Of a stretch of 64,000 bases of DNA, positions 17,997 to 62,850 are shown piece by piece. The position numbers and the translations under genes are program-made. The stretch comes from Candidatus Sulfopaludibacter sp. SbA3 (GTDB taxonomy: Bacteria; Acidobacteriota; Vicinamibacteria; Vicinamibacterales; UBA2999). The notes beneath the pieces were generated by a model that was given only the letters and a program-made list of their open reading frames with translations, did no database searches and was not told the origin of the DNA. Every line of letters begins with the position of its first letter. The first letter of the stretch is position 1. The stretch spans positions 1 through 64,000 of the forward strand of contig CAMDNQ010000003.1 in the NCBI GenBank assembly GCA_945903265.1, in the 5' to 3' direction.

Positions 17997-18046
17997 ACAC
18001 GTTCTGAGTTCCGCGTTCCACGTGCCGGGTTCGTGTTCGATGTTCT
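17997..18046. repeat. GTTC-rich direct-repeat tract
   Basis: Short units (ACGTTCTGAGTTCCGCGTTC, then CACGTGCCGGGTTCGTGTTC and GATGTTCTGAG) repeat with small changes between the two genes. It looks like an intergenic simple-repeat insertion of the same general style as the GTGCCTGG tract at 4438-4608, though with a different unit. Confidence 0.5.
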
Positions 18047-18059
18047 GAGGAGCCTGATT

Positions 18060-18452
18060 ATGCAGTTCAAGTCGTTCGGCATCGCAATCTTCTGTGCGCT
18101 CGCGCTAACGCTGCCCGTCGCCGCACATCATTCGCACGGCAACTACGACCTCTCGAAGTGGACGCCCATGGAAGGCGTTGTCAAGCAGGTCATCCTCGTC
18201 GTCCCCCACTCGATCGTGTATCTGGACGTGAAGGATCAGAAGGGTGAAGTCACGGTCTGGTCGCTTGAAGCGACGAGCGTTCGTGGCGTGCTCGCCAACG
18301 GGGTGAAGCGGGAGGATGTGAAGGCGGGCGACCGCATCAAGGTGCGGTGCCACCTGCTGCGGGACGGTTCGCCGGGGTGTCTGCTCGGATTCGTCACGCC
18401 CGACCATGGCGATGTGGCGCGCGGCCATGGGGTCGAGCGCGAGTGGGACTGA
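18060..18452 (+). CDS. DUF6152 family secreted protein
   Basis: 130 residues. A signal peptide ends just before AHHSHGNYDLSKW, the hallmark AHHS/AHHP start of mature DUF6152 proteins, followed by an OB-like beta domain (GVVKQVILVVPHSIVYLDVKD, VWSLEATSVRGVLANGVKREDVKAGDRI). Function is unknown. The exposed HH near the mature N-terminus makes metal binding plausible. ATG 18060 has GAGGAG upstream. A second member of the family is at 50554-50964. Confidence 0.8.
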   Translation: MQFKSFGIAIFCALALTLPVAAHHSHGNYDLSKWTPMEGVVKQVILVVPHSIVYLDVKDQKGEVTVWSLEATSVRGVLANGVKREDVKAGDRIKVRCHLLRDGSPGCLLGFVTPDHGDVARGHGVEREWD

Positions 18453-20046: not shown

Positions 20047-20670
20047 TCAGGCGTTCGACCAGTCGAACTCGTAATAGATCCAGTTCGACTTCTCAGCGCC
20101 CACGGAAACCCCGTCGGAACTGGCTCGGAACGTCCCCTGGCCGCATTGGCCATGCTTCCAGATGAATCCATCCGGCAGATCGACGTTTGCCAGATGTTCT
20201 TCGCCCGTGACGGGATTCTTGAATGTGTCGCCGCGGCCTTCGCCGATTCCTTCGGCCGTGAAGGTACTTTTGGGTCCGGCGCCTTCGATGGTGATCCGGG
20301 CTTTCTGCAGACCGACGACCTGGAACGTGGGGCCTAAAAGCTCCCACGGCATGCCGCCCAGCTTGCCCGAGAATACCCCCGCCAATGCCTCGATCTGCTT
20401 GTCTGAAGTGGAGGGGTCCACGACGAACACGCACTTCCCATTCCCCTCGTGAATCGCCTTCGGCCAGTCGATCACGGCGGCGCACTTCACTCCTGACACG
20501 TCCACGTCACCGACCTTGCCCGACGTGATCTGCAAGCCCACGAGGGCGCGGCAGCTGCCGTCCTTGGAATTGGGAAACCCGCCGAAGTTGCACCCGCACC
20601 CGAAGTCACAGTTGCAGAATTCGTAACCACGGCCAGTCATGGCCCACCGTGTCGCTGTCGCTGTTGCCAT
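20047..20670 (-). CDS. DUF1326 domain-containing protein
   Basis: 207 residues, probably cytoplasmic, with the N-terminal cysteine-rich motif EFCNCDFGCGCNFGG typical of DUF1326 and further beta-rich sequence (GVFSGKLGGMPWELLGP). Members frequently sit next to DUF2182 genes, as here (10 bp convergent). The clustered cysteines suggest metal or redox binding, but no activity is established. Start ATG 20670 with GGGAGG upstream. Confidence 0.85.
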   Translation of the reverse strand: MATATATRWAMTGRGYEFCNCDFGCGCNFGGFPNSKDGSCRALVGLQITSGKVGDVDVSGVKCAAVIDWPKAIHEGNGKCVFVVDPSTSDKQIEALAGVFSGKLGGMPWELLGPTFQVVGLQKARITIEGAGPKSTFTAEGIGEGRGDTFKNPVTGEEHLANVDLPDGFIWKHGQCGQGTFRASSDGVSVGAEKSNWIYYEFDWSNA

Positions 20671-20703
20671 CGCTCACCTCCCGCGCGTTATCCCCTCGGT
20701 ACG

Positions 20704-21375
20704 TTATCCCCTGGGTTCCATCGGCTGCGGCACGATCCGCAGGTAGGGCCTCGGCGCCTTCCACCCCTTGGGATAGGTCTTCTTTGCCTCTTCGTCCGAG
20801 ACAGAACCGATGATGATCACATCCTCGCCATGTTTCCAGTTCACCGGCGTCGCGACCTTGTGCTTCGCGGTGAGCTGGAGCGAGTCGATCACGCGGAGCA
20901 CCTCATCGAAGTTGCGGCCCGTCGTCATCGGATACGCGATGATCAGCTTGATCTTCTTGTCGGGACCCACGACGAACACGTTGCGCACCGTGGAGTTGTC
21001 GGCGGCCGTCCGGCCATCGCAACTGCCAACCAGATCCGCGGGGAGCATGCCCCACGCCTTTGCGACCTCGAGTTTCGTGTCGCCGATCATCGGATAGTTC
21101 GGCGCGTGGCCCTGCGTTTCCTTGATGTCGACGGCCCACTTCGCGTGATTCTCGACGGGATCGACGCTCAGGCCGATCACCTTGACGTTGCGCTTGTCGA
21201 ACTCCGGTTTCAGCTTGGCCATGTAGCCCAGCTCGGTCGTGCAGACAGGCGTGAAGTCCTTCGGATGCGAGAACAGCACCGCCCAGGAATCGCCGATCCA
21301 TTCGTGGAACCGGATTCGGCCTTCCGTGGTATCCGCTTCGAAATCCGGCGCCGTGTCACCAATCCGTAGACTCAT
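20704..21375 (-). CDS. 1-Cys peroxiredoxin (Prx6 type)
   Basis: Cytoplasmic peroxidase of 223 residues. It has the Prx6 signature: SHPKDFTPVCTTELGYM with the single peroxidatic Cys, the Thr two residues before it in the TPVCT motif, and a long C-terminal extension (SVSDEEAKKTYPKGWK...PYLRIVPQP) characteristic of the Prx6 class. ATG 21375 has GGAGG seven bases upstream. A minus-strand -10 box TATAAT (21406-21401) sits just ahead. It is divergent from the TonB receptor, with 36 bp between. Confidence 0.93.
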   Translation of the reverse strand: MSLRIGDTAPDFEADTTEGRIRFHEWIGDSWAVLFSHPKDFTPVCTTELGYMAKLKPEFDKRNVKVIGLSVDPVENHAKWAVDIKETQGHAPNYPMIGDTKLEVAKAWGMLPADLVGSCDGRTAADNSTVRNVFVVGPDKKIKLIIAYPMTTGRNFDEVLRVIDSLQLTAKHKVATPVNWKHGEDVIIIGSVSDEEAKKTYPKGWKAPRPYLRIVPQPMEPRG

Positions 21376-21424
21376 TGCACACCTCCATCAGTTACGGGAG
21401 ATTATATCTGTGTGCGGACGCACA
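21376..21424. promoter_or_regulatory. Compact divergent promoter region with TGTGCG-GA-CGCACA palindrome
   Basis: Between the peroxiredoxin and the TonB receptor lies a consensus TATAAT on the minus strand (21406-21401) and an inverted repeat TGTGCG (21411-21416) and CGCACA (21419-21424). The repeat falls in the -20 to -30 zone of the leftward promoter and over the start of the rightward gene, so it could be a regulator site. Confidence 0.45.
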
Positions 21425-23370
21425 GCTTCGTGATGCTCGCGGTGTTGTTGTGCAGTATGTCCACGGCGGCGGCGCAGGAAGCACCCCCGCAGACGCCGCC
21501 GGAGGAGACGCCCGAGTTCGAGGAGACGATCGTCGTCTCCGCGACGCGGTCCGAGCGCCGCGTGGAAGACGAGCCGCTGCGCGTCGAGGTCGTCCCTGCC
21601 GAGGAGGTGGAGGAAAAGGTCGTCATGACGCCGGGGGACGTCTCGATGCTCCTCGCCGAGACCAATGGCCTCCGCGTCCAGACGACATCGCCCTCGCTCG
21701 GCGGCGCGAGCGTCCGTATTCAGGGCCTCAGTGGGCGGTACACCCAGGTGCTCGCCGACGGGCTCCCGCTCTACGGAAGCCAGTCCGGATCGGTCGGCAT
21801 CCTGCAGATTCCTCCGATGGATCTGGGCCAGGTCGAAGTCATCAAAGGTGTCGCGTCATCCCTGTACGGAATGTCGGCTATCGGCGGCGTCGTCAATCTG
21901 GTATCGAAGCGCCCCACGCTCGGCGAGCCGGAGCGGGAGATCCTCCTCAATCAGACCAGCCATGGCGGCACAGATGCCGCGCTCTGGATTGCGCAGGCGC
22001 TGAACGAGCGATGGGGCGTCAGCCTGATTGGCGGCACGTACTTGCAACGGCGCTCCGACCTGGACGAGGACGGCTGGACCGACCTGCCGACGTTCCGCCG
22101 CGTGCAGGCCCGCCCCCGTCTGCTCTGGGACAACGGCGCCGGACGCTCGGTTCTGGTGACTGCCGGCGTCATGGACGAGCGCCGGCGCGGAGGGACGATG
22201 CCCGGGGCGAACGCACCTGATGGACGTCCGTTTACCGAGCAGCTCGATACCACGCGACTCGATGGCGGCGCGCTCGGCCGCTTTCTGCTGGCGGGGACGC
22301 GCATCCTCTCGGTCCGCGCGAGCCTGTCGTCGCAACGTCATCGCCGCCGGATCGGCGAGGCGCTCGAACGTGACCGCTCCGTGACGTGGCTGGGCGAGAC
22401 GTCGGTGACAGCCACCAATGGCAGGCACACCTGGGTCGCGGGCGCAGCGGTCCAGGGCGACCGGTTCCGTGCGGCCGACGTGCCGCGATTCAATTTCTCC
22501 TATCTCACGCCAGGCGTGTTCGCGCAGGATGACTACGCGCTCACGCCGCGTGTCACCCTCTCCGGCGGCGCAAGGGTGGACATCCACAACGAGTTCGGCG
22601 CGTTCCTCAGCCCGCGCGCGGCACTGCTCTGGCGCCCCGCGCCCGTCTTCACGACGCGGCTGTCGGTCGGGCGCGGCCACTTCGCGCCGCTGCCGTTCAC
22701 CGATGACACGGATGCGACCGGTCTCACGCCGGTGGCGCCACTTGGCGATCTCGATCCCGAAGATGCGACGAGCGTGGCCGGCGACGTGACGTGGGCGGCG
22801 GCGCCGTGGGAGGTCACGGTCACCCTCTTCCAGAGCCGGATCGATCGTCCTCTGATGTTTGAACGCCTCGATGCCGGCCCGTATCCTGCGCACATCGTGA
22901 ACGCCGGCGAGCCGACGCGGACACGCGGGTCGGAGCTCATCGGGCGATATCGCAAAGGCGGCTTCATTGCGATCCTCTCGCACATGTACCTGTGGTCGAC
23001 CGAGTCGGATGGCGATGCCGGACGCCGCGAAGTGCCGCTGAATCCGCGCCACACCGCGACGTTCGACGCGATGTACGAATTCGGAGAAACGCGCATCGGC
23101 TTCGAGGCGTTCTACACCGGCAGTCAGCGTCTCGAGGAGACGCCGTATCGAACGGAGGGGTCCCCGTATGTCTTGTGGGGTGGTCTCCTCATGCAGAACG
23201 TCGGACCTCTCGTGCTGTTCATCAACAGCGAAAACCTGGGTGACGTCCGACAGACGAAAACCGAACCGCTTGTGTTCGGTATCCGCCAGCGCGACGGCCG
23301 GTGGGCCACCGACGCATGGGCGCCGCTCGAAGGACGCACCGTGAATGCCGGCGTTCGAGTGAGGTTTTAA
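21412..23370 (+). CDS. TonB-dependent outer-membrane receptor
   Basis: Receptor of 652 residues. A short signal peptide is followed by a TonB-box-like EETIVVSATRSERRVED, a plug domain (VRIQGLSGRYTQVLADGLPLYG, GQVEVIKGVASSLYGMSAIGGVVNLVSKRP) and a beta-barrel that ends VNAGVRVRF. The plug resembles the BtuB/FepA class for cobalamin, siderophores or metals more than the Oar class at 11814-14600. GTG 21412 gives the full signal peptide; ATG 21433 is a possible shorter start. Substrate unknown. Confidence 0.88.
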   Translation: MRTHSFVMLAVLLCSMSTAAAQEAPPQTPPEETPEFEETIVVSATRSERRVEDEPLRVEVVPAEEVEEKVVMTPGDVSMLLAETNGLRVQTTSPSLGGASVRIQGLSGRYTQVLADGLPLYGSQSGSVGILQIPPMDLGQVEVIKGVASSLYGMSAIGGVVNLVSKRPTLGEPEREILLNQTSHGGTDAALWIAQALNERWGVSLIGGTYLQRRSDLDEDGWTDLPTFRRVQARPRLLWDNGAGRSVLVTAGVMDERRRGGTMPGANAPDGRPFTEQLDTTRLDGGALGRFLLAGTRILSVRASLSSQRHRRRIGEALERDRSVTWLGETSVTATNGRHTWVAGAAVQGDRFRAADVPRFNFSYLTPGVFAQDDYALTPRVTLSGGARVDIHNEFGAFLSPRAALLWRPAPVFTTRLSVGRGHFAPLPFTDDTDATGLTPVAPLGDLDPEDATSVAGDVTWAAAPWEVTVTLFQSRIDRPLMFERLDAGPYPAHIVNAGEPTRTRGSELIGRYRKGGFIAILSHMYLWSTESDGDAGRREVPLNPRHTATFDAMYEFGETRIGFEAFYTGSQRLEETPYRTEGSPYVLWGGLLMQNVGPLVLFINSENLGDVRQTKTEPLVFGIRQRDGRWATDAWAPLEGRTVNAGVRVRF

Positions 23371-23428: not shown

Positions 23429-24817
23429 GTGACAGTGAAAGGGGAACCCGGAACTCCAGGCGACTTGGCGGCGGCGCCCGAACAGGGACGGCCTCCAGCC
23501 CCTTTTCTACGCCGTTTCTGGACCCGCGCCGCGACCAAGCTTCGCAACGACGGCGGCAAGGCCGTCGAGGTTCTCCGTCTCGGCGAAGCCCTCCTCTCCG
23601 AGCGTGGCGAGGTGTCCGGCGCACGCGTCGGCGCCGAGCTGCTGACGGCCTACCGCAACCTGTCCCCGTCCGGCCGGGAAGCGTTCTTCGAACTCCTCGC
23701 CGATTCCTTCATTCCAGATCCCGACCAGGTCGCCGTGGCCGCCGAGGCCTATCAGCGCGCGCCCTCGTCCAGCACCCTGGCGCGACTTCACTCAGCGACC
23801 GAACCGCTGCGGCAGGAGCTGTTCCGCCGCCTGAACCTGGCCGAGGGAGGCACCGAGGCGCTGATCGCGATGCGGCGCGATCTGCTGCGGACGCTCAAAG
23901 AGCATCCGGAGCGGTCGGGCATCGATTCGGACCTCCAGCACCTGTTCCGCTCCTGGTTCAACGGCGGGTTCCTCGTCCTTCGCCGTATCGACTGGAGAAC
24001 GTCGGCGGTCGTGCTCGAGCGCCTCATTCATTACGAAGCGGTCCATCAGATTCAGGGATGGGACGATCTGCGCCGGCGGCTCGAGACGGATCGCCGCTGC
24101 TATGCGTTCTTCCATCCGGCGCTCCCAGAGGAGCCGCTGATCTTCATCGAAGTCGCGCTGACCGAGCGCCTGAGCAGCACGGTGCGTCCGCTCCTCGATC
24201 CCAAAGCGGACGTGCTCGACCCGAAGCTGGCACGGTTCGCGATCTTCTATTCGATTACGCACTGCCAGGAAGGGCTGCGCGGCGTATCGTTCGGAAGTCT
24301 GCTGATTAAGCAGGTCGTCGAAGACCTGCGCCGGAGCTTTCCGAAGGTCAAGACGTTCGCAACGCTGTCGCCGATTCCCGACTTCCGCAAATGGCTGGCG
24401 GAAACGGCGAACGCGGGCACCGGCTCGGAGGAAAGCCGCGTGAGCGACTTTCTCGCGCGGGTGGATTCCGGCTCCGGTGATGTGGCGCCGACGGGTTCCT
24501 CGCCCGCCGACATCAAGGACGAGCTCGTACGGCTCTGCGCCTATTACCTGACCCACGCGCGCAAGGGCAAGCTTCCGTACGATCCGGTCGCCCGGTTCCA
24601 TCTCGCCAACGGTGCCCGGCTGGACCGCCTGAACTGGCTTGCCGACGTCTCCGAGGCCGGCATCCGCCGGTCGTTCGGCGTGATGTGCAACTACGTCTAC
24701 GACCTCGATGACCTCGAGCGGAATCACGAGGCCTTCGCGCGCGAATACCACGTGGTCGCCTCCAGCGACATCGAGCGTCTCGCGCGGCAGTCGATGCTCG
24801 CCGCCCGCCCCGCCTGA
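23429..24817 (+). CDS. Malonyl-CoA decarboxylase
   Basis: 462 residues, converting malonyl-CoA to acetyl-CoA and CO2. The N-terminal helical domain (about 30-160) and the C-terminal GNAT-like catalytic domain are both present, the latter with RRCYAFFHPALPEEPLIFIEVALT, FYSITHCQEGLRGVSFGSLLIKQV (active-site Ser/His region) and FATLSPIPDFRKWL. GTG 23429 with GAGGT upstream; the length agrees with bacterial MCD. No mat-type transporter or malonyl-CoA synthetase is adjacent, so it may serve fatty-acid or propionate metabolism rather than malonate growth. Confidence 0.93.
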   Translation: MTVKGEPGTPGDLAAAPEQGRPPAPFLRRFWTRAATKLRNDGGKAVEVLRLGEALLSERGEVSGARVGAELLTAYRNLSPSGREAFFELLADSFIPDPDQVAVAAEAYQRAPSSSTLARLHSATEPLRQELFRRLNLAEGGTEALIAMRRDLLRTLKEHPERSGIDSDLQHLFRSWFNGGFLVLRRIDWRTSAVVLERLIHYEAVHQIQGWDDLRRRLETDRRCYAFFHPALPEEPLIFIEVALTERLSSTVRPLLDPKADVLDPKLARFAIFYSITHCQEGLRGVSFGSLLIKQVVEDLRRSFPKVKTFATLSPIPDFRKWLAETANAGTGSEESRVSDFLARVDSGSGDVAPTGSSPADIKDELVRLCAYYLTHARKGKLPYDPVARFHLANGARLDRLNWLADVSEAGIRRSFGVMCNYVYDLDDLERNHEAFAREYHVVASSDIERLARQSMLAARPA

Positions 24818-24820
24818 CGA

Positions 24821-24890
24821 TAAATTCAGAAAAACTTCAGTTTTCAGAGCACAGACCCCGCATAGCCTGAGGTCCGGACTCGTCCGAACC
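24821..24890 (+). promoter_or_regulatory. Leader with TTCAG repeats and hairpin before the siderophore receptor
   Basis: The 87-bp gap holds three TTCAG units at 24825, 24836 and 24843 with an embedded inverted repeat AAAAC-TTCA-GTTTT, and a hairpin GGTCCGGA (24871-24878), loop CTCG, TCCGAACC (24883-24890). The AGGAG ribosome site starts four bases after the hairpin. This is a plausible iron- or ligand-responsive control region, but no canonical Fur box is seen. Confidence 0.4.
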
Positions 24891-24904: not shown

Positions 24905-27259
24905 ATGCGCGTGTTTTCCCGGGCTCTCTGGATTGTGCTCTTCGCCGTTCTTCCCACCGCCGCACTGGCTCAAACGGGGTCACTGCGCGGGACCGTCGCC
25001 GACCGCCAGGGCGGCGTCGTCGTTGGCGCCGTCGTCGTTCTGACCACCGACGCGGGGATGATGCGGGAAGCCGCGTCGACCGCCGAGGGCACGTTCGTGT
25101 TCGACGGCCTGCGGGCCGGCTCCTACACCATGATCGTCACCTCCCCGGGCTTCTCCACCTGGAGCCAGGTCGTGCGCGTCGCCGACGCCCCGCTCGATTT
25201 CATGGTCACCCTCGACATTGGCGGGATCAGTGAAGTCGTCGGCGTCGTTGGCACCGGCGTCTCGCCAATGGCCGTGCCTGCCCCGACGGCGACGCGGCTT
25301 GGTCTCACGCCGCTGGAAACGCCCGCGAGTCTGGTCATCGTGACCGGCGAGACCATGCGTCAGCGCGGCGACGTGACCGTCGAGGATGCGGAAGTCCGCA
25401 TGGTGGGCGTGACCTCAGGCGGCTCTCCTGGAAACGGCTTTGCGTCCCGCACGACGCGCGGGTTTGGCGGCTTGAATTCGGTGATGAAGCTCTACGACGG
25501 GGCGCAGCTCTTCGTGGCATCCGGGACGCTGACGTTCCCGTTCGACACGTGGAGCGTGGAGCGGCTCGAGTTCCTCGGTGGTCCGGCATCGGTGATGTAC
25601 GGCAACGGCGCGGTCGGCGGCGTGATCAATGTCATTCCGCGGCGGCCGAACCGCTTCACGACCGAAAACGCCGCGCGCGTGGCGATTGGTTCGAACAACA
25701 CATTGCGGGCGGCATTCGGGCGTGGAGGCCCGGTCAACAGCCGCGTGGCTTACCGGTTCGACATCAGCCACAACCGCTCCGATGGCTGGGTCGATCGCGG
25801 TGAGTCAACCGGCACCGCCGTGTCGGCCTCCGTCAGCCTCGTGGCGACGCCGCGCCTCGACCTGACGGTGTCAGAGGATTTCGGCTATCAGGAGCCTCAG
25901 CGCTACTTCGGCAGCCCCCTCGTGAACGGGCAGCTCCTGGAATCGCTGCGTGAGAAGAACTTCAACGTCTCCGACGCGGACATGCACTACAAGGACAGCT
26001 GGACGCAGTTCAAGGCTGACTGGCGCCCGCTCCAGAACGTCGTCGTCCGCAACAACTTCAACGTGCTGACCTCGAACCGCTATTGGAAGAACCTCGAAAC
26101 CTACACGTTCGTCCCGGCGACCAACCTCGTCAACCGGACGGACTTCGTCCAGATCTTCCACGATCAGCTCCAGTTCGGCGAGCACGCGGAGGCGACCATC
26201 AACTCGTCGCTGGGGGGCCGATCGAACACGATTTCGGCGGGCTTTGACTATTCGTGGACGCGGTTCCAACACACGAACAATTCGCCCTACGGCGGCGCCA
26301 GCGCGGTGCCGCTCGACCTCCCGTCGCCCGGCCTGTTCCTCGACCTCGCAGGCATGAGCAAGGACTTCCGCGCGCTGCAGAACCAGTACTCGGTGTTCGT
26401 GGAAGACCGGCTGGCGCTCACGCCGCAGTGGTCCCTCGTCGGGGGCGCGCGTCTTGACCGCTACGTTGTGGAGCGCGAGGCGCAGCGCCTCGGGACGACA
26501 GCTTCCCGTGACTTCGCACCCGTGAACTGGCGAGGCGGCGTGGTCTACGCGCCGCGGTCCGATGTCTCCTTGTACAGCCAGTACGCGACCGCGACGGATG
26601 CGGTCGGAACGCTCCTGACGCTCAGCCCGGCACAGCAGCTCTTCGATCTGACGCCGGGACGCCAGATCGAGGCCGGTTTCAAGCAATCGCTGGCGGGCGG
26701 TCGCGGCGACTGGACCCTGGCGGCGTACCACATCGTCAAGGAGAAGCTGCTGGTTCCTGATCCGAACAATCCGACCCTTCGGCTGCAGATCGGACAGCAG
26801 TCATCCCGCGGCATCGAGTTCGCCTGTGCGGTGAACATGGGCTACGGCCTCCGGATGGACGGCAATATCGCGATCCTCGACGCGCGCTACGACGACTTCA
26901 CCGAGGTGATTTCGGGCGTGCTCACACAGTGGGCCGGAAATACACCCACCAACGTGCCCGAGCGCGTGAGCAGCCTCTGGCTGACCTGGAGCCTGCCGCA
27001 GCAACTCCAGGTGCAGGGTGGCATGCGGTACATCGGCATGCGCTATCTCAACAACGCCAACACGGCGACCACTCAGCCCGCCACGGTGGTCGACGCCAGT
27101 ATCCGCCGGCAGCTGACCAGCAAGGTCAACGTGGATCTACGGGCCACGAACCTGCTCGACAAGTTCTATCTGCAGAACGTGTCCGGATCGCCGATTCCTG
27201 TCCGCGGGCGCTTCGGAGCGCCCAGGCAGATCGAGCTCACATTGAACACCCGGTTCTGA
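24905..27259 (+). CDS. TonB-dependent siderophore receptor with N-terminal regulatory-like domain
   Basis: 784 residues. A signal peptide ending ALAQT precedes a carboxypeptidase-regulatory-like domain (GSLRGTVADRQGGVVVGAVV), then a plug of the siderophore type (TPLETPASLVIVTGETMRQR, FASRTTRGFGGLNSVMKLYDG, VERLEFLGGPASVMYGNGAVGG) and a barrel with a C-terminal NLLDKFYLQNVSGSP and the final RQIELTLNTRF. Barrel motifs resemble FpvA/FhuE-type receptors. Start ATG 24905 with AGGAG. The PepSY reductase gene follows after 4 bp; this pairing of receptor and PepSY protein is typical of ferric-siderophore uptake. Confidence 0.92.
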   Translation: MRVFSRALWIVLFAVLPTAALAQTGSLRGTVADRQGGVVVGAVVVLTTDAGMMREAASTAEGTFVFDGLRAGSYTMIVTSPGFSTWSQVVRVADAPLDFMVTLDIGGISEVVGVVGTGVSPMAVPAPTATRLGLTPLETPASLVIVTGETMRQRGDVTVEDAEVRMVGVTSGGSPGNGFASRTTRGFGGLNSVMKLYDGAQLFVASGTLTFPFDTWSVERLEFLGGPASVMYGNGAVGGVINVIPRRPNRFTTENAARVAIGSNNTLRAAFGRGGPVNSRVAYRFDISHNRSDGWVDRGESTGTAVSASVSLVATPRLDLTVSEDFGYQEPQRYFGSPLVNGQLLESLREKNFNVSDADMHYKDSWTQFKADWRPLQNVVVRNNFNVLTSNRYWKNLETYTFVPATNLVNRTDFVQIFHDQLQFGEHAEATINSSLGGRSNTISAGFDYSWTRFQHTNNSPYGGASAVPLDLPSPGLFLDLAGMSKDFRALQNQYSVFVEDRLALTPQWSLVGGARLDRYVVEREAQRLGTTASRDFAPVNWRGGVVYAPRSDVSLYSQYATATDAVGTLLTLSPAQQLFDLTPGRQIEAGFKQSLAGGRGDWTLAAYHIVKEKLLVPDPNNPTLRLQIGQQSSRGIEFACAVNMGYGLRMDGNIAILDARYDDFTEVISGVLTQWAGNTPTNVPERVSSLWLTWSLPQQLQVQGGMRYIGMRYLNNANTATTQPATVVDASIRRQLTSKVNVDLRATNLLDKFYLQNVSGSPIPVRGRFGAPRQIELTLNTRF

Positions 27260-27263
27260 AGCC

Positions 27264-28946
27264 GTGGGCGCGCGCAAGCTCCTGAACTGGAAGACGTTCC
27301 TCATCTACCTTCACCGGTGGACGGGGATCGTCTTCGGTCTCGTCTTCGTCGTCTGGTTCATCTCAGGCGTCGCCATCATGTACGTGGGGCTGCCGCACCT
27401 TTCGGTGCGCGAGCGCCTGGGGCACATGCCGGCGCTCGACTTCTCGAGTGTCACGGTCACGCCGGCGGAAGCGGCGGCGCGCCACGATCTGACCCCCGCG
27501 CGGCTTGGCGTTGAGATGTTCTACGACGGACGGCCGATCTATCGATTTCCCGACGGCACGAAGGTCTACGCGGACACGGGCGATCGTGTCGGTCGCGCGT
27601 CGCGCGAACAGGCGATCGAGATGATTCGCCGCTGGGTACCGCAGTTCGCCGGCACCGTGCAGTACGACGCGTACCTGACGGAGCCGGATCAGTGGACGGT
27701 CGGCCCCTCGCGCCGTGCGGCGCTGCCGCTGCATCGCATCGCTCTTGGCGATCCTGCCGGCACGATGTACTACGTGTCGGAACAGCTTGGCGAGCCGACG
27801 ATGAAGACCGACCGGAGAGGACGGGTACTCGGGTACGTGGGCGCCGTCCTGCATTGGACGTACTTCACCTCGCTCCGGCGCAACCAGCCCCTCTGGATCG
27901 CGGTGGTCGGCTGGGGAGCGGTGGCCGGCGTCCTGATGTGCGTCGCGGGGATGGTGGTGGGCTTCGTGCGCCTGGGTTACAGGAAAGTGTATCGGCTCCG
28001 CGCCGGCACGTCGCATTCGCCGTATTCGGGCTGGATGAAGTGGCACCACTACTCCGGGCTGATCTTCGGCGTCGTGACCATGACCTGGGCGTTCAGCGGG
28101 GCGATGTCGCTGTCGGTCCCGTTCCCGTCGATACGCAACGCCCCCGCGACGGACGCGCAGCGCACGGCGGTCGCCGGGTCGCCGCTCGATCTGGAACTGA
28201 TCACGATCGACCGGATGCGCACGGCGCTGGCGACATTGGGCCTTTCCTTCGTCCCCAAACAAATCGACGTCCACCAGTTCCGCGGACAGCCGTATTTCAT
28301 CGGGTACCGCCCGCCAGGCCCATACGCGTACGCGGACGAAATCGGCGCGAACGAGGAGCAGGCGGCGCCGCGTCCCGAGCATCGGATTATCCCCGTCGGA
28401 AATCCGACCGTTGCCTTCACGAGATTCACGGGGGACCGGATGTGGGACGTCGCCAAGGCGGCGATGCCGGGCGTGCCGATCCGCGATGCCGCATGGCTCC
28501 AGGAGTACGACGCCTACTACTACAACCAGGATGGCATCAGGCCGCTGCCCGTGCTCCGCGTGCGATACGCGGATGAGCGCAGCACATGGCTATACCTGGA
28601 TCCCAACCTCGGGACGATGACGAAGCAGGACATCGGCGGCCGCTGGCTGCGGTGGCTGTACCACGGCCTGCACAACCTTGATTTCCCGTTCTGGTATTAC
28701 CGCCGGCCGCTCTGGGACATCGCGGTCATTCTGCTCAGCATCGGCGGCCTGGTCCTCAGCGCGACGACGCTCCTGCCCTCCTGGCGCCGGCTCGTCCGTC
28801 ACGCGCACCACTGGAAGGGTGCCCTCGTGACCCCGAAAACGGATTCCCGCCTTCGTCTGGCTGATCGTGGTTGGAGTGCTCGCGTCGGGGGGCTCGAACA
28901 GAGTCGCGGCGACAACAGCGCCGACGCAGATCCGGCGTTGAGATGA
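27264..28946 (+). CDS. PepSY-associated transmembrane protein (ferric-siderophore reductase-like)
   Basis: 560 residues, inner membrane. An N-terminal helix with conserved His (LHRWTGIVFGLVFVVWFISG), large periplasmic PepSY-type loops (WVPQFAGTVQYDAYLTEPDQW), an HW segment (GAVLHWTYFTSL), a further helix with WMKWHHYSGLIFG and a C-terminal helix after HGLHNLDFPFWYYRRPLWD. Conserved His pairs on the helices could hold heme, as in FoxB/PiuB-like reductases of siderophores. GTG 27264 lies four bases after the receptor stop. The last about 40 residues are polar and unlike the family; a reading-frame slip near 28840 is possible. A paralogue starts at the right end of the window. Confidence 0.85.
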   Translation: MGARKLLNWKTFLIYLHRWTGIVFGLVFVVWFISGVAIMYVGLPHLSVRERLGHMPALDFSSVTVTPAEAAARHDLTPARLGVEMFYDGRPIYRFPDGTKVYADTGDRVGRASREQAIEMIRRWVPQFAGTVQYDAYLTEPDQWTVGPSRRAALPLHRIALGDPAGTMYYVSEQLGEPTMKTDRRGRVLGYVGAVLHWTYFTSLRRNQPLWIAVVGWGAVAGVLMCVAGMVVGFVRLGYRKVYRLRAGTSHSPYSGWMKWHHYSGLIFGVVTMTWAFSGAMSLSVPFPSIRNAPATDAQRTAVAGSPLDLELITIDRMRTALATLGLSFVPKQIDVHQFRGQPYFIGYRPPGPYAYADEIGANEEQAAPRPEHRIIPVGNPTVAFTRFTGDRMWDVAKAAMPGVPIRDAAWLQEYDAYYYNQDGIRPLPVLRVRYADERSTWLYLDPNLGTMTKQDIGGRWLRWLYHGLHNLDFPFWYYRRPLWDIAVILLSIGGLVLSATTLLPSWRRLVRHAHHWKGALVTPKTDSRLRLADRGWSARVGGLEQSRGDNSADADPALR

Positions 28947-47906: not shown

Positions 47907-48940
47907 AGGTCACCGGCTACCGGATCCACGAGTGGGGCGGCCCGCTCCGCTGGGAGTCGTTCGACATTCCGGCGCCGACAGCCGGCGAGGTGCTGATTCG
48001 CGTGGAGGCCTGCGGCATCGGCCTCACCGTCCTCAATTGCATCCGCGGCGATCTGGCCAACGACACGGCCAGCCTGCCTCGCGTCCCTGGCCACGAGATT
48101 GTCGGGCGCATCGAGGCCATCGGCGACGACGTCGCGGGCCCCACCATCGGCCAGCGCGTCATGGCGTACTTCTATCTCGTCTGCGGGCGATGCCCCGCCT
48201 GCACGGCGGGACAGGATTCGCTCTGCGCCAACCTCGCTGGATGGGTCGGCGTGCATCGTGACGGCGGGTACGCCCCCTTCACGATCCTGCCGGCCGGCAA
48301 CGCGATCCCACTGCCCGATTCGATTCCGGCCGCGCAGGCCACCGCCATTCCCGACGCGATCGCGACTCCCCTTCACGTGTGCAAGACGCGCGCGCGCATC
48401 CAGCAGGGTGACCGCGTGGCCGTCATCGCGGCTGGTGGCGGCGTCGGCATTCACATGGTGGAGATGGCGGCGCATTTCGGCGCCCGCGTCGCAGGGCTCG
48501 AAGCCAGCGAGGCCAAGTTCGACGCCATCCGGACAGCGGGAGGAACTGCAGTGCTCTCGCGCTCGTTTGACGCGGTCGATCTCAGGCCCGCCTGGGACGG
48601 CGAGCCGCCGACGGTGGTCATCGATCTCCTCGGCTCGCGCGACAGCGTCACATGGGCGCTGCAGGTTCTTCCGCTCGGCGGCCGTCTGGTGCTGCTGACC
48701 ACATTCCGGGACGTCGAAGCGATCCTGAGCCCGCGCGACATGGTGCTCCGGGAGGTGACCATCCTCGGATCACGCTACGCCACGAAAGCGGAGCTCCGCG
48801 AATCAGCAGCACTGGTTGCGTCCGGAAAGATTCACCCCGTCGTCAGCGCCGTTGTCGGCCCTGAGGGAATAGAAGAGGTCCACGGCGCATTGAGAAACGG
48901 CACCCTGGTGGGGCGAGGCGCGGTGGATTGGAACGTCTGA
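47903..48940 (+). CDS. Zinc-binding alcohol dehydrogenase, last gene of catabolic operon
   Basis: 345 residues. VPGHEIVGRIEAIG, structural zinc cluster CGRCPACTAGQDSLC, and Rossmann loop AAGGGVGIHMVEMAA. The position of the first catalytic Cys reads EACGIGLTVLNCIRGD rather than the common CG-x-C-x-x-D, so zinc coordination may differ. ATG 47903 overlaps the amidohydrolase stop (ATGA). The stop codon lies within the inverted-repeat element 48935-48965 that serves the next gene. Confidence 0.88.
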   Translation: MKVTGYRIHEWGGPLRWESFDIPAPTAGEVLIRVEACGIGLTVLNCIRGDLANDTASLPRVPGHEIVGRIEAIGDDVAGPTIGQRVMAYFYLVCGRCPACTAGQDSLCANLAGWVGVHRDGGYAPFTILPAGNAIPLPDSIPAAQATAIPDAIATPLHVCKTRARIQQGDRVAVIAAGGGVGIHMVEMAAHFGARVAGLEASEAKFDAIRTAGGTAVLSRSFDAVDLRPAWDGEPPTVVIDLLGSRDSVTWALQVLPLGGRLVLLTTFRDVEAILSPRDMVLREVTILGSRYATKAELRESAALVASGKIHPVVSAVVGPEGIEEVHGALRNGTLVGRGAVDWNV

Positions 48941-48997
48941 AGATTGCCTGAATTCTTCGTCAGACAGCCCGGCATCGTCGAACCATGACCGTATAAT
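48935..48997 (+). promoter_or_regulatory. 31-bp inverted-repeat element A plus -10 box, upstream of GOLD-like member 3
   Basis: The element (48935-48965) begins GTCTGAAGATT, has three variable bases, then TGAATTCTTCGTCAGAC; the outer ends GTCTGA/TCAGAC are inverted. After 26 bases comes a perfect TATAAT (48992-48997), giving a start near 49004 and a leader of about 7 bases. There is no -35 box at 17 bp, so the element looks like an activator site adjoining the -35 position. A copy with two mismatches (element B) lies at 51661-51691 on the other strand. Confidence 0.6.
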
Positions 48998-49011
48998 CGC
49001 GGTAGGCAGCC

Positions 49012-49551
49012 ATGACACAGCACACACGCATCGCCGGGATCATGCTTACGCTTTCATTGCTTGCGGCTCCTGGATTCGCCCAGACCCAGCAGCCACTGAA
49101 CCCGGTCGGCGGTCAGCCGGGAGGCCCTCCGGTCACGCCGAAGCCGGGCGATCCCCTGACTCCGCTGGCCACGCCCTACAAGGTGGACGCCATCGAGTTT
49201 CTGCTCAGGCCGAAACAGTTCGTCGAATACAAGTTCCGCCTGACGACCGGCGCGATGATGGTGTTCAACTGGAAATCGGATTTCCCGATTGACGTGGACT
49301 TCCACACCGTTCCGGATGGCAAGCCGATCTCGGCATCCGAGACGTACCTGCGAGGATCGTTCGCCAGCGGTTCGGGCACGTATCGCGCGCCGTACCCCGG
49401 CCTTCACGGCTGGTACTGGATGAACACCGGCACGGAGGACGTCAAGATCATCCTCAACGCGTCAGGCTTCTTCACGGAAGCGCGCATGTTCAGCGGGGAT
49501 CCCGTCGGCGAGCCGATGGAGGTCCAGGATCCGGCGCCGCCGCAGTATTAG
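49012..49551 (+). CDS. GOLD-like exported protein, family member 3 (soluble form)
   Basis: 179 residues. A cleavable-looking signal (MTQHTRIAGIMLTLSLLAAPGFAQ) replaces the membrane anchor of members 1 and 2. After a Pro/Gly-rich linker the shared domain appears: VEYKFRLTTGAMMVFNWKSD, VDFHTVPDGKPISASETYLR, and YRAPYPGLHGWYWMNTGTED ending ASGFFTEARMFSGD. Function unknown. It is expressed from its own -10 box behind element A. The downstream neighbours (DUF6644 genes) converge with a 4-bp overlap of stops. Confidence 0.75.
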   Translation: MTQHTRIAGIMLTLSLLAAPGFAQTQQPLNPVGGQPGGPPVTPKPGDPLTPLATPYKVDAIEFLLRPKQFVEYKFRLTTGAMMVFNWKSDFPIDVDFHTVPDGKPISASETYLRGSFASGSGTYRAPYPGLHGWYWMNTGTEDVKIILNASGFFTEARMFSGDPVGEPMEVQDPAPPQY

Positions 49552-50021
49552 TAATAGGTAATCAACCTGCCGCTGATGGCCACCGCCATCCAGAGCGCGA
49601 ACGACGCGGCACCGACAGCCCTCGGCACCCACGACGGCATGCGCCCCTCTTCGGCGGCCGCGACCCTCCGCCGCAGCGTTGCCGTGAAGACCACCGCCGC
49701 CACGAGAAGCCACATCTTGAACACGAAGATCGGCGACCGGTAGTAGGTCAGGGCATTTGCCGTGAACTGCGGGATGCCCGTCGCCAGCACGGCGAGGCCG
49801 GCCCAGAACAGGATCCGCTGCGCGTTGCGCGCGATTGCCGCGCGCGACTGACCGATTAACCCCCACCCGAGCAGGCGCAGATCCACGATCAGGATGGCGC
49901 CAACGAACGTCGCAATCGCGACGAGGTGCAGAGCCTGCGTGACCGCGAACAGCCACAGCGACTCACGGTAGACCTGGCTCATCGCCAGGCCTTCGCACCA
50001 TTCGAAGAACGGCTCAAACAC
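49548..50021 (-). CDS. DUF6644 family membrane protein (1)
   Basis: 157 residues with four or five transmembrane helices. N-terminal FFEWCEGLAMSQVYRESLWLFAVTQALHLVAIATFVGAILIVDLRLLGWG is the DUF6644 pattern: a Trp-x-x-G/C-x-x-x-x motif, helix with His, then an ILVDLRLLG motif. The His residues in helices (LHLV) suggest heme or quinone binding but no function is known. Last gene of the cytochrome/DUF6152/DUF6644 operon. Start ATG 50021, nine bases after the preceding gene. Confidence 0.8.
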   Translation of the reverse strand: MFEPFFEWCEGLAMSQVYRESLWLFAVTQALHLVAIATFVGAILIVDLRLLGWGLIGQSRAAIARNAQRILFWAGLAVLATGIPQFTANALTYYRSPIFVFKMWLLVAAVVFTATLRRRVAAAEEGRMPSWVPRAVGAASFALWMAVAISGRLITYY

Positions 50022-50030
50022 TCAGACCCT

Positions 50031-50531
50031 TCAGTTGAACCAGTTGGTTGCGGTGAGCCGGCCCGAGACGATGATTGCGGACCACAACAGCAGCGAGAGT
50101 CCGCCGCCCAGCCGCACCGTCCCCCTGAGCCGTGGATCGTCGTCCCATTGACCGGCCATCGGGTAGGTTTTCAGGTGAAAGACCAGCGCGTTCAGCCCCG
50201 CCAGCGCTAGCAGCACCAGCTTCACCCGAAAAATCACGTTCCCGTAGTAGCGCAGCGGATCGATGCAGCACAGAAGGAGTCCGGTCGCGGTGCTTGGGAC
50301 AAACGCGGCCATCTGCCACGGGAAGAGCCGCCGCTGGATCTGGGTCCGCGGCACGTCCGGGAATGCCACGCCGAAGAGGCGCAGATCCATGACGATGATC
50401 AGCCCGGCGAAGGCGACGATGCTCGCGACGTGCGCCGTCAGGATGATCGGGTAGCCCCAGACAGACTCGCGAATCGCCGTCGTCCAGGCGAGCCCTTCGA
50501 GCCACTCGAGGGTCGGTACTATCGAGGGCAT
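50031..50531 (-). CDS. DUF6644 family membrane protein (2)
   Basis: 166 residues with about five helices, paralogous to the next gene: LEWLEGLAWTTAIRESVWGYPIILTAHVASIVAFAGLIIVMDLRLFGVAF, then FPWQMAAFVPSTATGLLLCCIDPLRYYGN. The conserved His in the second helix and the VMDLRLFG motif are shared with the partner. Two adjacent DUF6644 genes next to a DUF6152 gene recur in related bacteria and suggest a small membrane complex, of unknown task. Confidence 0.8.
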   Translation of the reverse strand: MPSIVPTLEWLEGLAWTTAIRESVWGYPIILTAHVASIVAFAGLIIVMDLRLFGVAFPDVPRTQIQRRLFPWQMAAFVPSTATGLLLCCIDPLRYYGNVIFRVKLVLLALAGLNALVFHLKTYPMAGQWDDDPRLRGTVRLGGGLSLLLWSAIIVSGRLTATNWFN

Positions 50532-50553
50532 CGCGAGGCCGGTATGCCGTGTC

Positions 50554-50964
50554 TCAGCGATCGGCGCCGTCGTTCGGCCCGCCGACCGCGCCGACGTAGA
50601 AGCTGCGTCCGTCGGCCAGCACGAGCGTGCGGCCGTTGGCGAGCGTCGGATCCCTCCGGCTCTGATACCCCTTGATCACGAGAGACATGCCGTCGACCGT
50701 GTCGGTCTTTTTCAGCCCGCGGCGGCTTATCGAGCCCGGACCCGCGACCTCGACTGTCCACTTCTTGACGGTGCCGTCCGGCTGCTTGACGTCCATGTAG
50801 ATCCAGCCGTGCGGGTTTACCCACTCCATTCTGGACAGGGTCCCCGTCAGCGTCACCGGTTTGTTGACGTCGTACTCCGCCGCGAACGGATGATGCGCGA
50901 GTACCGGCTGGACGGCAAAGAGTGCTGCAGCAGCGAGCAACGCGAGAACAATCCCCGTCTTCAT
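50554..50964 (-). CDS. DUF6152 family secreted protein (2)
   Basis: 136 residues. A signal peptide (MKTGIVLALLAAAALFAVQPVLA) is cut to leave HHPFAAEYDVNKPVTLTGTL, the family N-terminus with its HH pair; then MEWVNPHGWIYMDVKQPDGTVKKWTVE and ...LVLADGRSFYVG. ATG 50964 has a GGAGG site eight bases upstream. It is downstream of the cytochrome lipoprotein (33 bp) and 22 bp upstream of the first DUF6644 gene. Confidence 0.82.
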   Translation of the reverse strand: MKTGIVLALLAAAALFAVQPVLAHHPFAAEYDVNKPVTLTGTLSRMEWVNPHGWIYMDVKQPDGTVKKWTVEVAGPGSISRRGLKKTDTVDGMSLVIKGYQSRRDPTLANGRTLVLADGRSFYVGAVGGPNDGADR

Positions 50965-50997
50965 CAGATGCCTCCGGTCAAAAATCACTGCGATGCG

Positions 50998-51579
50998 TCA
51001 GCGAGCCGATGCCACTGCCTGGGGAAACCAGAACACTTGATGGCAGTTCTCACATCTCATGTCGATGTCTTCGCCGGCGACGAGAAGCGCCTGCGGATCT
51101 TTCGCATCGATGGCCGCCAGCGCCGGCGTCAACGAATCCTGCAGCGCCTGCGCGTACGCGTTCCAGGCGTCCTGGTTGCCGTCGATCAGCTTCCGAATCT
51201 CCTCGGGCGGCAGCTCGACGCCCGGTGCCATGGACGCGGCGCCCGGCGGTGCCACCGGCCGGCCGGGCATCAACAGCAGGTTGGCCGCTTCGCTGACGAT
51301 CAGGGCGTGGCGTCGCACCTCGGCCCACTGCTCGTCGGTCGCGGGGGCGTGGTCGGTCATTTTTCCGTCGTCGATGACCGTTTTTACCGAGTCCCACACA
51401 TTGTCGACGGAGGGATCGATCACGCTGCTCATGACCTCCCGGATCGACGCCACCGGACGATAGGGAACGTCCGCGGGCTGTGGCTGCTGGGGAGCCGCAG
51501 CCTGTGAGCAGCCGGCGACCAGCGACGCGGCGATCAGTCCGAGCGCCGCGGCCGCATTCCGAAGACGAAGGTGCGTCAT
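50998..51579 (-). CDS. Cytochrome c'-like lipoprotein with one CxxCH
   Basis: 193 residues. Lipoprotein signal ends LVAGC. The helical mature part includes ASIREVMSSVIDPSVDNVWDSV, EQWAEVRRHALIVSEAANLLL and a C-terminal heme site CENCH followed by QVFWFP. Layout matches the cytochrome-like protein at 39737-40222: a four-helix stretch followed by one CxxCH near the C-terminus. I used ATG 51579 because the lipoprotein signal starts there. It is the first gene of the operon driven by element B. Electron-transfer or gas/metal sensing is possible; no function can be assigned. Confidence 0.72.
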   Translation of the reverse strand: MTHLRLRNAAAALGLIAASLVAGCSQAAAPQQPQPADVPYRPVASIREVMSSVIDPSVDNVWDSVKTVIDDGKMTDHAPATDEQWAEVRRHALIVSEAANLLLMPGRPVAPPGAASMAPGVELPPEEIRKLIDGNQDAWNAYAQALQDSLTPALAAIDAKDPQALLVAGEDIDMRCENCHQVFWFPQAVASAR

Positions 51580-51629
51580 AGCTGGACCATAAACTGAAAC
51601 GTTAAACTCGGTCAATCAACCCTGACGCC

Positions 51630-51691
51630 ATTAGAACATTGCTGCGATGACGCCGGCGCAGTCTGACGAAGAATTCATGGAATCTTCAGAC
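51630..51691 (-). promoter_or_regulatory. 31-bp inverted-repeat element B plus -10 box, upstream of the cytochrome/DUF6152/DUF6644 operon
   Basis: Element B is 51661-51691. On the minus strand it reads GTCTGAAGATT, three bases, TGAATTCTTCGTCAGAC, identical to element A except for two of the three central bases. After 25 bases comes TCTAAT (51635-51630), compared with 26 bases to TATAAT for element A. Both have CCGGC near the -35 position and no consensus -35. The predicted start near 51623 leaves a leader of about 44 bases. Confidence 0.6.
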
Positions 51692-62255: not shown

Positions 62256-62303
62256 CGCCTCCGCCCCCGGGCGGCGCGATGATCCACGCTCAATCGAACA
62301 ATT

Positions 62304-62321
62304 CCTGAATTCTGCGTCAGA
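62304..62321 (+). promoter_or_regulatory. Partial copy (C) of the inverted-repeat element
   Basis: CCTGAATTCTGCGTCAGA matches the second half of elements A and B (17 of 18 bases against element A) and stands 25 bases before the GOLD-like start at 62347. The first half is not conserved and no convincing -10 box follows, so it may be a decayed or alternative site. Confidence 0.4.
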
Positions 62322-62346
62322 AACGGCGCTGATGAGGGAACCTGTG

Positions 62347-62850
62347 GTGAAATCACGCATGTTCCTTTTTGCAGCCGCCGTGGCAGCCGCGCTGATGACA
62401 ACCGTCGCCGTGCATGCGCAGGAGCCGTTGAAGCTCCCGACGCAGCAGGAAACCCTCGCCAAGTGGCCCTGGTCGATCACCGTTCACCCCGCACCCTTCC
62501 AGCAGCAGCGCGTGCAGTTCACGCTCAAGCCGACCGAGGGCATGGAATACAAGTACCGCCTCGAGAAGGGCGGGACGTTCCTCTACTCGTGGACGGCGTC
62601 AAGCGACCTGTATTGGGAGCTGCACAGTGAACCCGAAGGGTCACCGCGAGGCTACGCGGAATTTTTCGATACCAACCAGGGCGCCGCGTCGCACGGGGCA
62701 TACCAGGCGCCCTTCCCCGGGATCCACGGCTGGTGGTGGGAGAACAAGAGCGATCGCGAAGTGACGATCACGTTGTCGACCTCGGGCTTCTACACGGAGT
62801 CGCGTGAGTTCCGACGCGGCCAGCCCGTCAAAATCACGCCCTTGAAATAG
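62347..62850 (+). CDS. GOLD-like exported protein, family member 4 (soluble form)
   Basis: About 167 residues. Signal peptide MKSRMFLFAAAVAAALMTTVAVHA, then ITVHPAPFQQQRVQFTLKPTEG, MEYKYRLEKGGTFLYSWTAS, WELHSEPEGSPRGYAEFFDT, and YQAPFPGIHGWWWENKSDRE ending STSGFYTESREFRRGQ. The motif is GIHGWWWEN instead of GIHGWYW. GTG 62347 has AGGGAA six bases upstream; ATG 62332 and ATG 62359 are other options. Its 3' end overlaps the convergent PepSY gene by 17 bp. Confidence 0.72.
   Translation: MKSRMFLFAAAVAAALMTTVAVHAQEPLKLPTQQETLAKWPWSITVHPAPFQQQRVQFTLKPTEGMEYKYRLEKGGTFLYSWTASSDLYWELHSEPEGSPRGYAEFFDTNQGAASHGAYQAPFPGIHGWWWENKSDREVTITLSTSGFYTESREFRRGQPVKITPLK

Follow-up and report, generated by a model that had tools for sequence, protein, structure and literature searches.

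The closest described systems are the CopRS two-component system of Corynebacterium glutamicum and the CusR/CopR/CzcR/AgrR regulators of Proteobacteria. In C. glutamicum, the CopR operator TGAAGATTTgaTGAAGATTT was proven by electrophoretic mobility shift assay, binds phosphorylated CopR, and is required to activate copper genes. It consists of two identical direct repeats, TGAAGATTT-ga-TGAAGATTT, separated by 2 bp and thus of 11-bp period, and CopR is a proven activator with metal targets (PMC3140484). AgrR, CusR, and CopR boxes mix inverted and direct half-sites by the −35 region at comparable promoter positions (PMC7380067, PMC11195947). TonB receptors paired with PepSY_TM proteins take part in acquiring Cu(II) in Bordetella and in reducing ferric siderophores in Pseudomonas (PMC12914433). 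Here, a 64,000-nucleotide stretch of Candidatus Sulfopaludibacter sp. SbA3 (the window; C3:1-64000 in a genome of 3.52 Mb on 45 contigs) was analyzed for two matching 31-bp elements, operators A and B. With a probability of about 0.87, these elements are operators of one OmpR/PhoB-family regulator of the heavy-metal type (CztR/SilR/CopR/CusR-like) that activates envelope metal and redox genes. The literature search found nothing on this acidobacterial regulon.

The initial annotation had described the two 31-mers as lying on opposite strands, identical at 29 of 31 positions, with −10 boxes 26 and 25 bp away. Coordinates, strands, and identity all check out, and the distances correspond to 28 and 27 bp when counted from the 27-bp core. 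The pair had been called unlikely by chance, and dinucleotide-shuffled windows indeed yielded no such matches. At up to 3 mismatches, the full 31-mer matches only operators A and B in the whole genome. The proposed inverted ends, GTCTGA/TCAGAC, hold for this pair, while relatives vary the outer G and T and keep only CTGA...TCAG.

Both 31-mers are members of a dispersed operator family, CTGAAGAnTTCCTGAATTCTTCGTCAG. In the aligned sites, the 11-bp direct repeats CTGAAGAnTTC and CTGAATTCTTC, with an 11-bp period, are followed by an inverted GTCAG. A relaxed core (CTGAANANNNNNTGAATTCTTCGTCAG, up to 3 mismatches) was scanned for in 43 genomes of the same taxonomic family and occurred at 59 sites in 18 of them, against 1 match for a reversed control pattern. 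The family-model search returned six copies in the own genome, and motif genomes carry several copies each, up to 11. Background loci gave 2 matches scoring above 20 in 697 kb, and a phylum-wide scan outside the order gave few matches, near chance level.

The placement of the sites is that of promoter elements. Random or intragenic occurrence, which the initial annotation had named as fatal to its reading, was not what was found: 58 of the 59 sites are intergenic in surroundings that are 83% coding (P about 1e-43, simple binomial), with a −10 hexamer at a fixed distance. At 54 of 59 sites, the gene on the CTGAAG side is oriented to read away from it. Flanks of the core carry low information except at −29..−24, where the aligned sites read TANNAT on the opposite strand; 71% of sites have the −10 hexamer at a spacing of exactly 22 or 23 bp from the core, and no other offset on that side exceeds 8%. 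Intergenic position, fixed −10 spacing, and gene direction therefore amount to a promoter architecture in which the element stands beside the place of a missing −35 box. Operators A and B show the rarer orientation relative to their genes; together with a third site, operator C, they have these genes on the opposite side from the family norm and a −10-like hexamer at 27-28 bp. Assuming that the 22-bp direct repeat is what is bound, both arrangements would differ by about one helical turn. Facing operator pairs 30-40 bp apart were also observed in divergent promoters (G027:C40:4896-4984, G017:C239:13405-13496, and G013:C5:161565-161647), perhaps for double-sided control.

The adjacent genes form a recurrent set. 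Among 53 genes on the −10 side, 14 encode a TonB Plug domain and 13 DUF6152, and the rest include cytochrome c', DUF6644, PepSY_TM, DUF4198, Peripla_BP_2, multihaem cytochromes, and one response regulator. On the opposite side, PepSY_TM proteins, TonB receptors, peroxiredoxins, two histidine kinases, and six ArsR genes were found.

A candidate for the binding protein emerged from genome G008, in which 36 bp separate the motif from the downstream gene for an OmpR-family response regulator with TIGR01387 as its best NCBIfam model. Its orthologue in the own genome is 74% identical and sits on another contig than the window (C6:107751-108431), followed by a sensor kinase whose best NCBIfam model is TIGR01386. 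The G008 protein carries the Pfam domains Response_reg and Trans_reg_C, and full-length matches to OmpR-family regulators in the PDB were obtained; by its receiver and winged-helix domains the regulator is assigned to the OmpR/PhoB family. In named genomes, further orthologues belong to metagenome-assembled genomes (MAGs) of Acidobacteria, with 85% identity in NC_groundwater_1576.

With the regulator called at E 1e-62 or better and the motif at E 0.005, the regulator was present in 20, the motif in 19, and both in 17 of the 43 family genomes; 17 of 19 genomes with the motif thus carried the regulator, compared to 3 of 24 without it. In an order-level set of 162 related genomes, the regulator occurred in 37 of 42 motif genomes and in 42 of the 120 others (Fisher P 2e-9, not corrected for phylogeny). 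In 19 cases, motif and regulator are at most 5 kb apart, where 0.32 such pairs are expected. The motif immediately precedes the regulator gene in G008, G091, G078, and L147, and also in the Bacteriovoracaceae MAG L157, while the order regulator, kinase, motif, target is found in G006, G031, G039, G054, G074, G091, G094, G511, and L148. In G039, G074, and G091, the target is a multihaem cytochrome with an MtrB/PioB porin, and the target stretches of G054 and G006 open with the same cytochrome. In G031, ExbB, DUF2149, and CobN follow, and in L148, a member of the Bryobacterales, a multicopper oxidase, an outer-membrane efflux-type protein, and an RND pump. ExbB-DUF2149 units at or near the regulator-kinase-motif unit (G031:C186, L316, then CobN-Mg_chel; G094:C103, L306) are candidate operons for metal-chelate uptake or processing.

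The initial annotation had proposed a single activator for an envelope module of redox or metal function. The comparative evidence (motif, −10 spacing, gene direction, gene content, co-occurrence, and co-location) supports this and names an OmpR-family response regulator of the heavy-metal type, from which we infer the following course. The kinase would sense a periplasmic metal, metal-chelate, or redox condition, and the phosphorylated regulator would bind as a tandem dimer to the pair of 11-bp direct repeats. Bound just upstream of a promoter with a −10 box and without a −35 box, it would recruit RNA polymerase and switch on TonB receptors with PepSY_TM, cytochromes, DUF6152/DUF6644, and exported GOLD-fold proteins. 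Tentatively, and at somewhat less than even odds, the system may be a regulon not described before and shared across this acidobacterial order, in which a two-component system of the CopR type co-activates metal-chelate uptake (TonB-PepSY-ExbB-CobN) and extracellular electron transfer (multihaem cytochrome and MtrB/PioB porin), with DUF6152, DUF6644, and GOLD-fold proteins as metal or redox parts of the envelope.

Several observations weigh against control by this regulator. Phylogeny partly confounds the co-occurrence; the motif was found with no regulator detected in G009, G014, G131, G506, and G509 (mostly incomplete MAGs), and 42 genomes have a regulator homologue with no motif detected. 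The own genome has no motif before its regulator gene. Scores against TIGR01387 (CztR/SilR/CopR), the best NCBIfam model for both proteins, were 223.7 bits for the own regulator and 236.2 for that of G008, below the cut-off of 279.2, and because of this the regulator is filed only as working like the heavy-metal type; the kinase scored 274.9 bits against TIGR01386, under the curated cut-off of 292.55. At the promoters, the −10 hexamer is only weakly enriched on the right side when all sites are taken together, and this is the geometry that operators A and B use. The 5' leader predicted for the gene at 49012 is just 8 nt.

The nature of the signal divides two versions of the same regulator and operator. 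A specifically copper signal, equivalent to CopRS/CusRS, would suit the likeness of the operator to the C. glutamicum CopR box, the TIGR01387/TIGR01386 models as best matches, the multicopper oxidase, efflux-type protein, and RND pump behind the regulator-kinase-motif unit of L148, and the Bordetella Cu(II) acquisition pairs (PMC12914433). However, the dominant targets of the order (TonB receptors, MtrB/PioB porins, CobN/ExbB/DUF2149, and periplasmic binding proteins) suit iron or metallophore uptake or electron transfer equally or better, and inspection of the aligned kinase sensor regions by eye revealed no conserved Cys/His/Met cluster; copper is possible but less likely than not. In the second version, the regulator would sense iron supply, a ferric siderophore, or another metallophore, in the manner of PfeRS-type systems, and activate uptake. 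The TonB Plug share of the adjacent genes, matches to siderophore-receptor models, and PepSY_TM, Peripla_BP_2, ExbB, and CobN among the targets all point this way, whereas the CopR-like operator, the copper-type family models, and the multicopper oxidase of L148 do not; an iron or metallophore signal is plausible at a little under an even chance.

The remaining explanations deny the regulator its operator. Another transcription factor might bind the motif while the regulator merely co-occurs, and ArsR-family genes do stand divergent beside the motif in six relatives. However, the close motif-regulator pairing far exceeds expectation and persists in distant genomes, and the ArsR genes have an AT-rich palindrome of their own (type ATATTT...GGAAATAT, seen where they diverge from motif-controlled DUF6152 genes in L016, L023, L030, L040, L074, and L075). 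The other heavy-metal-like response regulator on the window's contig (C3:101914), which served as a control, was rejected, as it is present in only 6 of 43 genomes. Binding by another factor is thus improbable. Ends of a mobile element, or REP/REPIN- or MITE-like repeats, would account for inverted copies flanking 2.7 kb and for the occasional inverted pair, some 30 bp apart, in relatives. However, the genome has only six copies, they go with the promoters of a single gene class and with one regulator, and their flanks are unconserved save for the −10 hexamer at its fixed distance; this reading was rejected as very improbable, though the analysis included no search for a linked transposase. 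The imperfect palindrome could also suggest a transcribed RNA hairpin, attenuator, or terminator. Here the conserved part is a direct repeat, and the element lies outside the transcript because it is 22-28 bp upstream of the −10 box, which leaves this reading hardly credible.

The features of the window are collected in Table 1. Operator D was overlooked in the initial annotation and lies 63 bp upstream of its TonB receptor. The partial copy reported at 62304-62321 did prove to be a related site beside a GOLD-like gene, but it is a weaker full-length site (operator C) rather than a fragment. The promoter geometry at operator C is doubtful because the predicted start region of the adjoining gene includes the forward −10-like hexamer (62348-62353).

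Table 1. Operators, −10 hexamers, and associated genes in the window (PWM, position weight matrix score).
Feature	Position	Strand	Remarks
Operator D	24811..24842	-	family-typical orientation; upstream of + strand operon
−10-like TAGCCT	24863..24868	+	22 bp from core of operator D
TonB-dependent receptor	24905..27259	+	operator D target; siderophore-receptor-like
PepSY_TM protein	27264..28946	+	operator D target; 5 bp after receptor
Operator A	48935..48965	+	27-bp core 48937-48963; E 9e-8 with family model; PWM 47.5
−10 box TATAAT	48992..48997	+	28 bp from core of operator A
Exported GOLD-fold protein	49012..49551	+	operator A target; 179 aa
DUF6644	49548..50021	-	operon B gene 4; Pfam PF20349
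DUF6644	50031..50531	-	operon B gene 3; Pfam PF20349
DUF6152	50554..50964	-	operon B gene 2; Pfam PF19649
Cytochrome c'-like lipoprotein	50998..51579	-	operon B gene 1; Pfam Cytochrom_C_2, sub-threshold
−10 box TCTAAT	51630..51635	-	27 bp from core of operator B
Operator B	51661..51691	-	27-bp core 51663-51689; PWM 47.2
Operator C	62292..62323	+	weaker, left arm degenerate; PWM 37.6; E 3.5e-5
GOLD-fold paralogue	62332..62850	+	adjoins operator C; 33% identical to 49012-49551

The target of operator A gave no Pfam or NCBIfam match. Its designation as a GOLD-like exported protein is borne out by the predicted structure, in which the AlphaFold core resembles p24/TMED GOLD domains (TM-score 0.78 by target length); the model (three sequences) is confident only for about residues 53-164, which form the GOLD fold. 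Behind operator B, Pfam agrees with the annotated cytochrome/DUF6152/DUF6644 operon, the cytochrome match being sub-threshold, and homologues of this lipoprotein adjoin the motif in 7 relatives. DUF6152 occurs in 43 copies in the own 3.5-Mb genome (in the window at 50554-50964 and 18033-18452), only two of all copies being near an operator; it was absent from 14 control genomes, and a literature search on it found no paper. Just upstream of operator D, at 20047-23370, are a cysteine-rich protein (CNCDFGCGCNFGG), a peroxiredoxin-like gene, and a second TonB receptor, with no operator of their own detected. Elsewhere in the window, a long stretch of coding sequence is directly duplicated from 8268 and 8694 (offset about 426 bp; identity of 28/31 or more).

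For a group of soil and groundwater Acidobacteria, members of a phylum with few cultures, the analysis provides a testable regulator, operator, and gene list. DUF6152, DUF6644, and the exported GOLD-fold proteins, families with no assigned function, would be tied to one metal or redox control circuit, and TonB-type uptake and MtrB-type electron transfer would be linked to a single two-component switch.

Compared to known systems, the locus shares with C. glutamicum CopRS (PMC3140484) an OmpR-family regulator with a sensor kinase, a motif near the regulator gene, and what look like two TGAAGAnTT-type direct repeats with an 11-bp period. As judged from sequence, the family repeat resembles the copper-responsive CopR box TGAAGATTTnnTGAAGATTT: the period agrees, the first half-site matches at 8/9 positions and the second, TGAATTCTT, at 6/9, and the box scores 25.0 of 38.1 in the family PWM (P about 5e-6 by shuffling). 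In contrast to C. glutamicum, with one operator per genome, up to 11 occur here, an extra inverted GTCAG arm is present, and the targets are TonB, PepSY, cytochrome, and DUF genes with a presumed metal link instead of copper export. Proteobacterial CusR/CopR/CzcR/AgrR are of the same response-regulator type, and the half-site CTGAC is common to the family motif and the P. aeruginosa CopR consensus CTGACAn5GTAAT (PMC11195947, PMC7380067), while their boxes are mainly inverted repeats (ATKACANNNNTGTMAT, ATTCATnnATGTAAT) and the 11-bp direct repeat dominates here. As in CrtA-family (PMC12914433) and FoxB operons, a TonB receptor is paired with PepSY_TM (window 24905-28946); CrtA operons are controlled via the CruR upstream open reading frame (PMC12914433), and the operon described here probably by a two-component activator.

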